DNA of 64,000 nt from SAR92 bacterium BACL16 MAG-120619-bin48 (GTDB lineage: Bacteria > Pseudomonadota > Gammaproteobacteria > Pseudomonadales > Porticoccaceae), in contig LIDE01000002.1 in the NCBI GenBank assembly GCA_001438605.1, positions 1 through 64,000 of the forward strand, in the 5' to 3' direction. The translations under genes and the position numbers were made by a program. Under the pieces are notes generated by a model, which saw nothing but the letters and a program-made list of their open reading frames with translations, was not told the origin of the DNA and did no database searches. Below are positions 20,686 to 25,570 of this stretch, one piece after another (position 1 is the first letter of the stretch; the number at the start of each line of letters is the position of its first letter).

Positions 20686-21330
20686 ATGGATTCAACGCAT
20701 ATCGATTATAAAAGTGTTTCATTTCTGACAAGCGCGCCCTCTATTAAGCAGTGTCCGGCAGATACTGGCAGAGAGATTGCCTTTGCCGGCCGCTCAAATG
20801 CGGGCAAGTCTAGCGCGATTAATACGCTTACCCGCACCAAAGGGCTGGCCAGAACCAGTAAAACCCCCGGTCGCACCCAGCTGATTAACTTCTTCGAACT
20901 GGGCGCCGACCGTCGCTTGGTTGATTTGCCTGGTTACGGATACGCAAAAGTACCGATAGCGATGAAGCGTGAGTGGGACAAGCACCTCGCCGAATACCTG
21001 CAGATGCGCCAAAGCATTGCCGGGCTGGTGTTGTTGATGGATATTCGCCATCCGCTGCAGGAGTTTGATCAGCAGATGCTCAACTGGGCGGCTCAAGCTG
21101 GCCTGCCAGTACACATTTTATTAACCAAAGCCGACAAACTGAAGCGCGGTCCCGCGCAAAGCGCCCTGCTGATGGTTGAGCGCCATCTGCGCGATATGGA
21201 TCCCGGCTGCACTCTGCTCAGTGCGCAGACTTTTTCATCCCTAAAAAATCAGGGACTGCCTGAGCTTGAGTCAGTATTAAACCACTGGTTCAAAGGCGAT
21301 CTTGTTGATGATGAGGGCGAGCTGGCATAG
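20686..21330 (+). CDS. engB: Ribosome biogenesis GTPase EngB/YihA
   Basis: Essential GTPase for large-subunit ribosome assembly. 214 residues. The G motifs are in order: G1 GRSNAGKSS (35-43), switch [13 protein letters not shown]3 DLPGYGYA, and G4 LTKADK. It is convergent with polA across the small-RNA interval, the same order and orientation as polA-spf-yihA in E. coli. Confidence 0.95.
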
Positions 21331-21416: not shown

Positions 21417-21525
21417 TCAAAAAAAACCCCAGTCCAAACTGGACTGGGGTTTGCATCACCTTGCTTGGGAGTTTTGGCGTTGCAGTTGCTTAGGTTCGGG
21501 GGAGAGTTAAGCAATATCGTCTTGC
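21417..21525 (-). ncRNA. Candidate Spot 42/ErsA-type trans-acting small RNA
   Basis: About 110 nt on the minus strand between engB and polA, the position of Spot 42 (spf) in E. coli and ErsA in Pseudomonas. The 3' end is a strong terminator (21424-21452) followed by a T-run; its CCCCAGTC/GACTGGGG core matches the Spot 42 terminator as I remember it. Near the 5' end TTGCTTA pairs with TAAGCAA (21486-21514) and presents a 15-nt loop containing CTCCCCC, suited to pairing with ribosome-binding sites. The start is inferred from a promoter-like sequence at 21532-21557. No convincing protein is encoded here. Hfq binding is plausible from the 3' U-tail. Confidence 0.7.
21424..21452 (-). terminator. 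Terminator of the small RNA
   Basis: A 13-bp perfect stem (AAACCCCAGTCCA and its complement) with a 3-nt loop; the closing pairs are A-T. On the minus strand it runs into eight T's in total. It may also stop plus-strand transcripts from engB, although the T-run on that side is short. Confidence 0.85.
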
Positions 21526-21531
21526 CCTTAT

Positions 21532-21557
21532 TCAGACCATCAAAAATCAGATAGTTC
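21532..21557 (-). promoter_or_regulatory. Extracytoplasmic-sigma-type promoter candidate for the small RNA
   Basis: On the minus strand GAACTA (21557-21552), 15 bases, then TCTGA (21536-21532). This resembles the RpoE/AlgU consensus GAACTT-N16/17-TCTGA with one mismatch and spacing short by one. It would start the RNA near 21525. ErsA in Pseudomonas is known to depend on AlgU, which makes the match notable but not proven. Confidence 0.4.
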
Positions 21558-22008
21558 AAAAATAATTGCAAAAAAGTGAAAATATTTTTTATTTTTGAGT
21601 ATTAAGTCCGCATCAGCCTCTCAAATTCACACAAAAATCGTGGTATTTGCCCATTAAAACGACTACCAAATGGCTTTTTTGGCCACTCAGCCGCAACAAC
21701 TTGCCAAACAGTTGACCTGGATCAGGCAGAACGAAAAATAGGGGCCTAGATAAGCTTGCGAGCCAGGAAGTCTCTTCCTACCCTTACTGTGGTTTGATCA
21801 TTTGCAGGATGCAGATAGCTGAAGCAATCAATGGAGTTGGTTGCCGAACCCGCGGCTAAACAGGTCAATTTTGACTTGCTTGCCAGCAGTAACGCACCAA
21901 ATCCTCCGCTTTCTCCAGATTGACGCTGCAGCGCAGTTAAACCCAGTGTCAGGTGTTTTTTCGTCCGGCGCATGTCACTGCCAATAACAAGGACGTGGAG
22001 AAGATGTT
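21558..22008. other. AT-rich non-coding stretch before the VPLPA-CTERM gene
   Basis: About 450 bases without a credible gene. Short readings here lack protein character. It should hold the promoter of the plus-strand surface-protein gene; TTGACC at 21712-21717 is a possible -35, but I see no clear -10. A GGAG-like ribosome-binding sequence lies just before the ATG at 22009. Confidence 0.5.
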
Positions 22009-22680
22009 ATGAAGAAAACAATTGTAAAACCTTTGTGTTTAGCAGGCCTATTGGCTCTCGCAGCCGCGCCGGTTTCCGCGACAACGTGGATGATCGGCGA
22101 CAATGATGGCTACGGTGCGGGCATCCCCGACAACGCCAACCACCCGTTCAATGGATCTAGTGCAAACTACGATGGCCGCAGCGCTGCAGAAATGGCTGCC
22201 ACCAATGGCGCACAGTACACCGACACGTACAGTACCACGCACCCCGGATACGGCCCGCAACCTGGCACCGTCGCCACGTTTGTCTTTGAAGGTCTCGGCA
22301 ATGGCTGGACTGAAGGCAGCATGTGGTTTGATATGGCTGACTTCCAAGCCTCTACGTTTGGCGCTGTCAAAACCACCTACAACGGCATTGCGCAAAACTG
22401 GGCCTTCAATGATGGCTTTCCAAGCACAAAAATCCGCTTTTTTGACTTAGCTCAGGACGTGATTGACTCGATCAACAGCCTCGGCTCACTGACCGTAGCC
22501 ATTGACCGCGCCGGTTCTGGGGATTTCTACGGATTTGACTTTGCGCTGCTCTCTGACCGCGTCGGGGACAACACCAATATTGGTGAAGTACCGCTACCCG
22601 CCGCTGTTTGGCTGTTCGGATCAGGCGTAATGGGACTCCTGGGTCTGCGTCGCCGCAAAAGCGCGGTTGCCGTAGCCTAA
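22009..22680 (+). CDS. Secreted protein with VPLPA-CTERM sorting signal
   Basis: 223 residues. A signal peptide (about 1-24, ending VSATTW) is followed by a mature region rich in Gly, Asn, Asp and aromatic residues, with no Cys. The C-terminus has the tripartite sorting signal: VPLPAAVWLFGSG, a hydrophobic helix, and an RRRK cluster (about 197-219). Such proteins are recognised and cleaved by an exosortase and usually end up on the surface or in the exopolysaccharide matrix. The exosortase is not in this window. A strong terminator follows. The gene sits between polA and the small RNA, where E. coli has none, so it looks like an accessory insertion. Confidence 0.85.
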   Translation: MKKTIVKPLCLAGLLALAAAPVSATTWMIGDNDGYGAGIPDNANHPFNGSSANYDGRSAAEMAATNGAQYTDTYSTTHPGYGPQPGTVATFVFEGLGNGWTEGSMWFDMADFQASTFGAVKTTYNGIAQNWAFNDGFPSTKIRFFDLAQDVIDSINSLGSLTVAIDRAGSGDFYGFDFALLSDRVGDNTNIGEVPLPAAVWLFGSGVMGLLGLRRRKSAVAVA

Positions 22681-22780: not shown

Positions 22781-25570
22781 CTAGTGCGCTTCATCCCAAT
22801 TGTCACCCACGCCCACATCAACCACCAACGGCACCAGTAGCTCGGCGGCGCTTTCCATGCGTTGAATCAAGCCCGCTTGGATCAGTTGCAGCTCTGACTC
22901 GGGCACTTCAAGTACCAATTCATCGTGTACCTGCATAATCATGCGGCTTTTAAGTGTGCCCTGCCGCAGCCAATCGTCAACGGAGACCATTGCGCGTTTA
23001 ATAATATCCGCGGCCGTTCCCTGCATGGGTGCATTGATGGCGGTGCGCTCTGCGGCCTGGCGGCGCATGCCGTTTCGGGCATTAATTTCCGGCAAATAGA
23101 GACGTCGGCCAAAAATGGTTTCCACGTAGCCTCTTTCGGCCGCGGTGTGACGAATAGTGTTCATGTAGTTCTGCACGCCGGGGTAGCGTGCGAAGTAGAG
23201 CTCTATATAGTCGGCAGCTTGTTTGCGGCCAATGGTGAGCTGGCGCGCTAAGCCAAAGGCTGACATGCCGTAGATAAGGCCAAAGTTGATGGCTTTTGCG
23301 CTGCGTCGCTGATCGGCGGTTACCTCGTCGGTGGCAACACCAAATACTTCTGCTGCGGTGGCGCGGTGAATGTCCTGACCGCTTTTGAACGCCGCTAGCA
23401 GGCTGGGATCTTCTGACAGATGGGCCATAATTCGCAGTTCTATTTGCGAGTAGTCGGCTGCCACGAGCTTGTGGCCTGGCGCGGCAATAAAGGCTTGGCG
23501 AACGCGCCGCCCCTCGGCTGAGCGAATAGGAATATTCTGTAAATTGGGATCCGATGAGGAGAGTCGGCCTGTGGCGGTGCCTGCCTGATGGTAGGAGGTG
23601 TGAATGCGTCCCGTGGTCGAGTTGATCATGACCGGCAGTTTGTCGGTATAGGTGGATTTCAGCTTAGCGAGCCCGCGGTGCTCAAGCAGTACTTTCGGCA
23701 GCGGATAATCGAGAGCTAGCTCTTGCAGCACCTCTTCCTTGGTGGAGGGTGCGCCTTTTTCGGTTTTCTTGAGTACTGGAATACCCAGTTTGTCGAAGAG
23801 TATTTCACCCAGCTGCTTAGGCGATGCAAGGTTAAATTGCTGGCCGGCGAGGTCCCATGCTTCTGTTTCAAGTTCGGCAAGGCGCTCAGCGAGCTCTTGG
23901 CTCTGCTGGAACAGCAGCGTGCTGTCGATCAGCGCACCGGTGCGCTCGATACGCGAGAGCACGGGGACAAGCGGCAGCTCAATATCACTGAACACTGTGG
24001 CCAAGGTTGGCTCAGCCACTAGTTGCGGCCACAGCGCTTGGTGTAGGCGCAGGGTAATATCGGCATCTTCCGCGGCGTAGGGGCCAGCCTGCTCGAGAGC
24101 CACTTGATTGAAGGTGATTTGGGCGGCGCCCTTGCCCGCGACGTCGGCGAAGGAGATGGTGGTTTCATTGAGGTACTTTAAGGCCAAACTGTCCATATCA
24201 TGGCGTGTCGCGACAGAGTCAAGCACGTAGGATTCAAGCATGGTGTCAAAGGCAATGCCCTGTAAATTGATGCCATGCTGTGCAAGCACGCTCATATCGT
24301 ACTTAAGATTTTGACCAACCTTGTTGATCTGTGGGTTTTCCAGTAGAGGCTTGAGCTGCTCGAGGACAAAGTCGCGCGACAGCTGCTGAGGCGCACCCAT
24401 ATAGTCATGCGCAAATGGAATGTAGGCGGCTTGGCCTGGCGTTACTGCGACGGACACGCCGACGAGTTCTGCCTTCATGTAGTCGAGGCTGGTGGTCTCG
24501 GTGTCAACGGCGATTAAGTCTGCCGTGTTTAAGCGCTCAAGCCAGTCTGCAAAATGTGCTTCGGTGAGAACGGTTTGATAGTCTTTGACCAATGTCGCTT
24601 TTTCGATGGGTTGCGCGGGTTCTTGAGAGGCTTTTTCGGGGTCTTTTTCAGTGGCTTTGGCGGCAGACGGTTGCGCCACGGCTGCTCCGTTCGAGCCGGC
24701 CAATGCCTCCTCAACCCACGATTTGAACTCCATATCTTGGAATAATGCCAGCAACTGGTCGTTGTCGGGCGTGCCGTTCTTCAGATCGCCAATGTGTAAT
24801 GGCATTTCAACGTCGGTTTTGATGGTGGCTAGCTGGTAAGAGAGGTAAGCCAGCGCTTTGTGCTCTTCGAGCTTGGCTGCCATGGTCTTGGCGCCGCGAA
24901 AATCCAGGGTACCGACATCATCGAGGCGACTGTAAATCGCATCCAGGCCCCCTATTCCCTGCAACAACCGCAACGCCGTTTTCTCGCCCACGCCGGGCAC
25001 GCCGGGAATATTGTCTGACTTGTCACCCAACAGCGCGAGATAGTCGATGATCAGCTCGGGTGGTATGCCAAACTTCTCAATCACCCCTGCCCTGTCTAGA
25101 TAGGTATTGGTCATGGTGTTGATGAGAGTAATGTGCTCATTGACCAACTGGGCAATATCTTTGTCGCCGGTTGAAATAATTACCGGCTGCTGGGCCGCTG
25201 TGGCCTGCAGCGCGAGGGTGCCAATAACATCGTCGGCCTCAACGCCATCGATAATTAGCATCGGCAGGCCCATCGCCTGAATAATATTGTGAATCGGCTC
25301 TATCTGTAGGCGCAGGTCGTCAGGCATGGGCGGGCGCTGGGCTTTGTAATCCGCGTACAAATCGTCGCGAAAGGTTTTGCCTTTTGCGTCAAACACCACA
25401 ACTACCGTGCTTTGAGGATAGTCTTTCTGCATGCGGCGCATCATATTGATCACCCCTTTTACCGCACCTGTGGGCTTGCCTTTGCTGTTCGTCAGCGGTG
25501 GCAGCGCGTGGAAAGCGCGATACAGATAGGAGGAGCCATCAACAAGAATTACCGGGGTGTTAGTGTCCAT
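22781..25570 (-). CDS. polA: DNA polymerase I
   Basis: Repair and Okazaki-fragment polymerase. 929 residues, normal for the family. The 5'-3' exonuclease is N-terminal ([46 protein letters not shown]). The 3'-5' exonuclease is in the middle, with its metal-binding DTETTSLD present, so proofreading looks intact. The polymerase domain is C-terminal: motif [15 protein letters not shown], motif [17 protein letters not shown] and motif [14 protein letters not shown] lysine- and glutamate-rich linker follows the 5' nuclease. It lies next to znuA and engB, as in Pseudomonas. Confidence 0.97.

Follow-up and report, generated by a model that had tools for sequence, protein, structure and literature searches.

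Within the 64,000 nucleotides of DNA analysed as one stretch (the window), a predicted small RNA transcript of ~109 nt, hereafter the RNA, lies on the minus strand at positions 21419–21527, with a predicted 5′ end at 21527 ± 3 and a predicted 3′ end inside the T run of its terminator. Its convergent neighbour is engB, encoding a ribosome-binding GTPase (20686–21330, plus strand; PF01926, 65.6 bits), and polA, encoding DNA polymerase I (22781–25570, minus strand; PF00476, 558.6 bits), is located upstream on the strand of the RNA. A sequence-only reading of the window had placed an RNA between engB and polA on the polA strand, with boundaries at 21417–21525; position and strand stand and the boundaries shift slightly, giving the transcript above and a promoter at 21532–21557, but the RNA is not adjacent to polA, since a gene for a PEP-CTERM protein (22009–22680, plus strand; PF07589 at the C-terminus, 20.8 bits with a cut-off of 20.7) intervenes. 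This gene is context and outside the RNA system; in 13 close relatives polA ends ~90–120 nt upstream of the RNA promoter, and the interval between polA and the RNA has no room for it. The same reading had identified the site as that of spf in E. coli and of ErsA in Pseudomonas. Both this correspondence (spf being held there in enterics) and the strand, that of polA, are borne out, and the RNA is kept in relatives. We consider it almost certain that the 21419–21527 region is an RNA gene, and one that is apparently undescribed, being neither Spot 42 nor a sequence match to ErsA.

The 3′ portion of the RNA is a Rho-independent terminator (21419–21452, minus strand), in which a perfect 13-bp inverted repeat (21424–21436 and 21440–21452) encloses a 3-nt loop and, read along the minus strand, leads into a T run; these features confirm the strong terminator noted in the sequence-only reading. 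A terminator scan of 1.1 kb returned eight sites, with 1.5 expected, and that of the RNA has the longest stem. The 112-nt segment 21419–21530 folds at −35.4 kcal/mol (z = −3.2), a value equalled by one of 200 shuffles, and the minimum free energy (MFE) fold for the sequence in the window contains all three elements, i.e. stem-loop 1, stem-loop 2 and the terminator. Stem-loop 1 (21486–21514, minus strand) has a UUGCUUA / UAAGCAA stem and a C-rich loop, CUCUCCCCC; stem-loop 2 (21452–21484, minus strand) is formed in the MFE fold by UGCA-a-CGCC / GGUG-a-UGCA around a 15-nt loop, AAAACUCCCAAGCAA.

When 112 family genomes were searched at the DNA level, 15 had matches: the own genome (that of the window), 13 congeners and, with a short match, one genome of another genus. 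The congener matches span ~163–178 nt at 77–82% identity and include promoter, body and terminator, such that the comparison of engB–polA gaps proposed earlier reveals conservation of all three parts. The alignment is a single continuous unit, consisting of an AT-rich block, GAACTA, 15 nt, TCT[TG]A, an RNA body with two invariant blocks, and the terminator; across its 14 genomes, the conserved block begins ~5 nt past the −10 element. At all 14 of these close-group loci polA lies upstream on the RNA strand and engB is convergent. A covariance model built from the 14 close-group sequences (R1), which returns the RNA itself (G000:C2:21421–21527) at 111.5 bits with the own sequence being part of the model, matches 65 of the 112 family genomes and seven of the 14 genera at E ≤ 0.01, the 14 model genomes included, and finds no match in the other 47. 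Neighbouring genes were checked for the fetched family matches: among the inspected loci (14 close and 20 wider; L003–L016, L035–L054), polA is present in 34/34 and engB in place in 32/34.

Across the order, R1 matched 21 of 390 genomes (ten candidates scored per genome), 16 of them within the family; the five matches outside it have neither polA nor engB nearby and were taken as false. L060 (G095, within the family), also with neither gene nearby, and a second match of G013 (L065) were dropped as false too. The lineage is probably Porticoccaceae, the two best named EngB matches coming from bacteria of that family (73% and 68% identity, in a scan that may omit records of the own genome). In the polA–engB gap of the closest of these named relatives (L074), neither the promoter motif nor a comparable RNA is seen; the RNA is thus not universal in Porticoccaceae. 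Genus g10 has two R1 matches in 13 of its 14 matched genomes, 175–211 nt apart in 12, with a GGAACT promoter motif before both copies in six of the eight loci inspected. Duplication of the RNA gene is seen at L038:1460–1790, L036, L037, L040, L041, L043 and L053, and a locus of genus g8 (L058:1460–2340) has three weak copies and a repeat-rich spacer.

For the analysis of covariation, 54 matches at E ≤ 0.01, with antisense and weak ones among them, were reduced to 40 copies at E ≤ 1e-5, with L054, L057 and L058 excluded. In the 36 distinct sequences of these 40 model-aligned copies, 20 of the 24 pairs show changes on both sides, a number reached in none of 500 shuffles; the alignment was fitted to the covariance model and so leans towards structure. 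The terminator contributes 9/10 modelled pairs with both-side changes, stem-loop 1 6/7, and stem-loop 2 3/3 in its inner helix and 2/4 in its outer helix. Pairing cells make up 90.8%, compared with 80.1% in shuffles, and fall to 27–43% when the partners are slid (38–43% for a slide of one column). RNAalifold applied to a MAFFT alignment did not find covariation, which we attribute to the different registers of the terminators (3- and 4-nt loops). Within the close group, the stem-loop 1 pairs are constant bar one cell of one pair. The predicted folds of all three close relatives examined lack stem-loop 1, the C-rich loop sequence being paired with a 5′ GGG instead; accessibility of the first seed therefore hinges on the true start of the transcript. 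Conservation of the stem pairs in relatives had been named as a check that could refute the sequence-only reading, and compensatory changes are what is found, supporting a regulatory-RNA-like gene conserved in relatives. That no convincing protein is encoded is likewise borne out: the spacing of invariant landmarks is 20, 21, 22 or 23 nt among 14 orthologues, a variation of 1–3 nt, so no reading frame is kept, and a peptide-coding reading was rejected. A CsrA-sponge reading was also set aside, the loops carrying CCC and not GGA, the CsrA motif.

The promoter motif of the RNA is TGAACTA-N15-TCTGA, and this arrangement is the known layout of RpoE/AlgU promoters. The sigma-E-type −35 element, GAACTA (21552–21557, minus strand), is the same in 14/14 close-group genomes; the −10 element, TCTGA (21532–21536, minus strand), is TCTTA in most relatives, and the 15-nt spacer is kept in 14/14. 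A largely conserved AT-rich block upstream of the −35 element in the 14-genome alignment (21558–21597, minus strand) may act as an UP element. In the wider family GGAACT or TGAACT precedes most copies, often as GGAACTT-N-GTCTAA or GTCAAA. Letter shuffles predict 0.43 occurrences of a strict sigma-E-type motif upstream of the 40 distinct copies and 0.77 of a loose one; the strict motif stands before 26 and the loose one before 38, two of the latter being out of register. The genome encodes RpoE (309 bits) and Hfq (103.9 bits). As an internal control, a similar motif, CGAACT[AT]-N16-TCT[GT], lies upstream of rpoE of the genus in 16 of 21 parsable loci (of 23) and is absent in the other five. Control of the RNA by RpoE is, on this promoter evidence, very likely. 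Four genomes of 1.2–1.4 Mb (G060, G029, G020 and G034; L172–L175) have no sigma-E-type motif before rpoE; G020 and G060 have a weak R1 match, and G029 and G034 none, which suggests that the rpoE motif and the RNA were lost together in these small genomes.

The C-rich blocks CUCUCCCCC and ACUCCCAAG are unchanged in the 14 genomes, and outer-membrane genes have Shine-Dalgarno regions to which they are complementary. Seed 1 (21498–21506, minus strand) is the sequence of loop 1 and, invariant in 14/14, complements the Shine-Dalgarno regions of some TonB-dependent receptors; seed 2, CUCCCAAG (21464–21471, minus strand; loop 2), lies within the block AACUCCCAAGCAA, also invariant in 14/14. In 12 of the 14 genomes CTTGGGAG occupies the Shine-Dalgarno position of a TorF-type putative porin gene (TIGR02001, 148 bits; PF09694 match), where TATCTTGGGAG is conserved and the flanks have diverged; the two genomes without this site are 85% and 79% complete. 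Among the seed-2 matches fetched (72 stretches, covering 73/76), the most widely recurring gene is that of the TorF-type porin. The porin orthologue of G058 (L385) is frame-broken in the assembly, possibly through a sequencing error. In the own genome and in seven relatives chosen from pattern matches, the start of one TonB-dependent receptor is preceded by CGGGGGAG / TATCTCGGGGGAGAT; this recurrence comes from eight hand-picked matches (L391–L398, six being the same receptor) together with the gene of the own genome (L234) and L280, and the resulting figure of at least eight genomes is not a rate. The start regions of engB and of a cytochrome c gene, used as controls in the same genomes, are equally strongly conserved; conservation of the sites is therefore support for the targets and not proof. 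Seed-matching sites (L333, L234 and orthologues) sit in small inverted repeats, ATCTC-GGGG-GAGAT or, in most porin copies, ATCT-TGGG-AGAT, possibly forming hairpins with the G run in the loop.

Anti-Shine-Dalgarno seeds by nature match many genes. In the own genome TTGGGAG-plus-ATG (seed 2) has 29 matches against 46 for a backwards control, and GGGGAGA-plus-ATG (seed 1) has 23 against 14; across the 14 genomes the counts are 76 against 75 for CTTGGGAG-N-ATG and 204 against 143 for GGGGGAG-N-ATG, the latter including the antisense of the RNA gene itself in at least eight genomes. Overall, therefore, seed-2 matches do not outnumber the control, and those of seed 1 exceed it modestly. Nineteen candidates of the own genome have a reading frame of ≥70 aa, and five of these are outer-membrane proteins, namely the TonB-dependent receptors L204, L209, L215 and L219 and the porin-like L195. 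The own genome has 30 TonB plug domains and 29 usable receptor start regions, two of which have 10-nt seed matches. Seed matches of ≥8 nt occur in 5/29 receptor start regions and in 5/103 of other genes (p = 0.04), GGGGAG at −25 to −1 in 6/29 and 1/103 (p = 0.0004), and GGGG at the same positions in 17/29 and 8/103, much of this being GGGGA without full seed pairing, and all against a crude background set of ORFs of ≥150 aa with guessed starts, some spurious. When shuffled small RNAs were compared with the receptor genes, the observed number of 8-mer matches was 5 (shuffle mean 0.87, maximum 5) and of 7-mer matches 12 (shuffle mean 4.05, maximum 14), some shuffles equalling the RNA. Duplexes of the whole RNA in RNAduplex were long, gapped and uninformative, and duplexes of the loops alone were used instead. 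In place of the targets left as unknown, outer-membrane proteins can thereby be predicted, and on these complementarities the prediction is probably, though by no means surely, correct.

Taken together, the sequence presents an RNA-like element with a terminator, covarying helices, a sigma-E-type motif, conserved seeds and complementary sites in start regions, for which the reading we prefer, with a probability of roughly 0.7, is that of an RpoE-induced trans-acting silencer of outer-membrane proteins, representing a new RNA family with an ErsA- or RybB-like mode of action. From these features we infer transcription, RpoE dependence, Hfq binding, blocked initiation and repression, in the following manner. 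Unfolded outer-membrane proteins would activate RpoE, leading to transcription of the RNA from its own sigma-E promoter, which would end at the intrinsic terminator. The RNA, probably with Hfq, would expose two C-rich single-stranded seeds (CUCUCCCCC in loop 1 and ACUCCCAAG in loop 2), which may base-pair with the mRNAs of the TorF-type putative porin and of several TonB-dependent receptors at their G-rich Shine-Dalgarno regions. Such pairing would stop ribosome binding, such that fewer proteins enter the stressed membrane. If so, the lineage gains an envelope-stress brake on its numerous TonB receptors (30 plug domains), and seed 1 with a receptor and seed 2 with the TorF-type porin are ready test pairs.

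The polA–engB gap was also compared across the Gammaproteobacteria. The 80 named EngB loci yielded 43 parsable gaps, of which 30 measure 90–700 nt. In these 30, a sigma-E-type motif is present on the polA strand of 18 and on the engB strand of three, and dinucleotide shuffles have it in 2.4 gaps on average (maximum 7 in 100 runs); for a stricter motif the numbers are 13, 0 and 0.29, respectively. Pseudomonadaceae gaps served as a positive control, with eight parsed and L131 left out as unparsable. All eight contain the motif, and in seven the distance from the predicted start to the T run is 127–135 nt (132 nt for ErsA). The 5′ end of Spot 42 is found in eight of the 43 gaps, and in three of these the loose search also places a sigma-E-type motif at another position (Alteromonas L097 and L140, and a gammaproteobacterial MAG, L087, with a gap of 2.4 kb); this co-occurrence makes Spot 42 and the sigma-E-type RNA look like different genes. 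The Alteromonas Spot 42-like RNA reaches just 22.9 bits with the Rfam model, and a match to the RNA in Alteromonas L097 was set aside as overlapping that Spot 42-like RNA. Weak R1 matches on the right strand and in the gap are found in Sedimenticola (23.8 bits), a Porticoccaceae MAG (20.3 bits) and others. The polA–engB site can thus probably hold two different RNAs, a precedent being VSsrna24 beside spf in Vibrionaceae (PMC3295665).

Several other explanations of the locus have to be weighed. The hairpin is strong and stands between convergent genes, as would a terminator serving polA or the convergent end of engB with no independent RNA gene, but this is highly improbable, given that the promoter motif and upstream body are conserved along with the terminator, that in the window the opposite-strand PEP-CTERM gene separates the hairpin from polA, and that g10 has two copies per gap with the promoter motif on both in six of eight loci. 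Even less credence attaches to the idea that the carbon-catabolite regulator Spot 42 (spf) is present here in diverged form; the RNA shares gap and strand with it and has a similar terminator stem. The RNA region scores 18.2 bits (E = 3.2) with the Spot 42 model RF00021, far under the gathering threshold of 80, and the CCCCAGTC/GACTGGGG stem that had been called Spot 42-like proves to be the version found in this species of the covarying terminator, the relatives having CCCCGGTCC, CCCGGTTC and CCCGGCTC. Furthermore, the 5′ end of Spot 42, GTAGGGTACAGAGG (taken from the enteric gaps L136 and L151), is missing from the RNA, the body of which begins GGGCAAGAC behind a sigma-E-type promoter motif, and three of the eight gaps with a Spot 42 5′ end hold a separate motif of this type. 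Of six scanned loci with the Spot 42 5′ end, RF00021 exceeds gathering in two, so the model misses some diverged Spot 42. A sigma-E-dependent small RNA whose main targets are not outer-membrane proteins, with seeds that bind other mRNAs or act on protein, would account for the lack of a global excess of seed-2 matches and for the majority of candidate start sites lying in other genes; it is nevertheless unlikely, in view of the TorF-type porin having the widest recurrence among the fetched seed-2 matches and of the GGGG start regions carried by the receptor class.

Compatible with the silencer mechanism is the possibility that the RNA is a true, highly diverged ErsA orthologue, the same gene by descent, to which we give a substantial chance, somewhat short of even. 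Gap, strand and gene order are shared, the sigma-E-type motif is present in every parsed Pseudomonadaceae gap, and C-rich segments are present in Pseudomonadaceae gaps. In the Rfam covariance search suggested by the sequence-only reading, however, the ErsA model RF01719 (gathering 50) matches nothing at E ≤ 10 in the 3 kb surrounding the RNA, yet finds ErsA at 117–133 bits in the matching place in all three Pseudomonas loci scanned; site and promoter type are nonetheless common to both RNAs. R1 is likewise silent at E ≤ 10 in the eight Pseudomonadaceae loci, and the C-rich run differs in position, being in the apparent terminator loop in ErsA and in loops 1 and 2 in the RNA. A broader model (R2) adds matches on the right strand and in the right place in five of the eight Pseudomonadaceae loci, all weak (14–17 bits, E 0.6–2.1), but is unspecific, as elements with no polA or engB nearby reach 32.8 (L065) and 30.9 bits (L056); its weak Pseudomonadaceae matches may therefore reflect the terminator alone.

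Beyond the preferred reading of an RpoE-induced silencer, a wider scenario is speculative, and we hold it only tentatively. The polA–engB gap would be an old gammaproteobacterial site of a sigma-E small RNA, with ErsA, the RNA, and comparable units of Neptuniibacter, Neptunomonas, Sedimenticola, Alteromonas and others all derived from one RpoE-driven outer-membrane silencer, and Spot 42 a separate neighbour, alone in the two enterics seen. The Porticoccaceae RNA would then be a form with a pair of anti-Shine-Dalgarno loops adapted to TonB receptors and TorF-type porins, duplicated in some genera. Should the preferred silencer reading hold, Spot 42 and the ErsA-type RNAs would be set apart as two histories at one address, and it would become testable whether ErsA is one branch, in Pseudomonas, of a far broader family.

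In the literature covered, which does not extend to many subscription journals, no small RNA is described for Porticoccaceae or SAR92, and no description of the RNA appears among the papers listed within the same coverage. ErsA is reported to be 132 nt long (PMC5819304) and to repress the porin OprD with Hfq (PMC7264166); further sources are PMC8545117 for ErsA, PMC2864571 for Pseudomon-1, and PMC13250501 and PMC11882849. ErsA (Pseudomon-1, RF01719), an AlgU/sigma-22-dependent RNA of Pseudomonas, resembles the RNA in its location in the polA–engB gap on the polA strand, its GAACT-N-TCAGA-type promoter, its C-rich segments and its strong terminator. It differs in length (~109 nt for the RNA), in having its C-rich run in an apparent terminator loop, whereas the seeds of the RNA lie in the loops of two stem-loops, and in its targets, algC and oprD being under Hfq-dependent post-transcriptional control and the predicted targets of the RNA being others; there is no useful covariance match in either direction. 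Spot 42 (spf, RF00021) has the same genomic site, strand, general size and terminator, differs in sequence, 5′ end and promoter motif, and can share a gap with a sigma-E-type motif.

VSsrna24 of Aliivibrio is a second small RNA gene in the polA–spf–engB interval, located 262 nt downstream of spf; according to PMC3295665 it is ~60 nt long, reported in Vibrionaceae only, glucose-repressed, and without a dramatic response to the stresses tested. Both it and the RNA are small RNA genes in the polA–engB interval, but the RNA is not preceded by Spot 42. RybB, MicA, VrrA and MicV, none of which is among the five weak matches of the Rfam search around the RNA, share its predicted logic, that of an RpoE-induced small RNA pairing with the 5′ regions of outer-membrane mRNAs (PMC7602753). 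They differ from the RNA in sequence, and the RNA is distinguished by its two anti-Shine-Dalgarno loop seeds and by TorF-type porin and TonB receptor mRNAs as its predicted targets.
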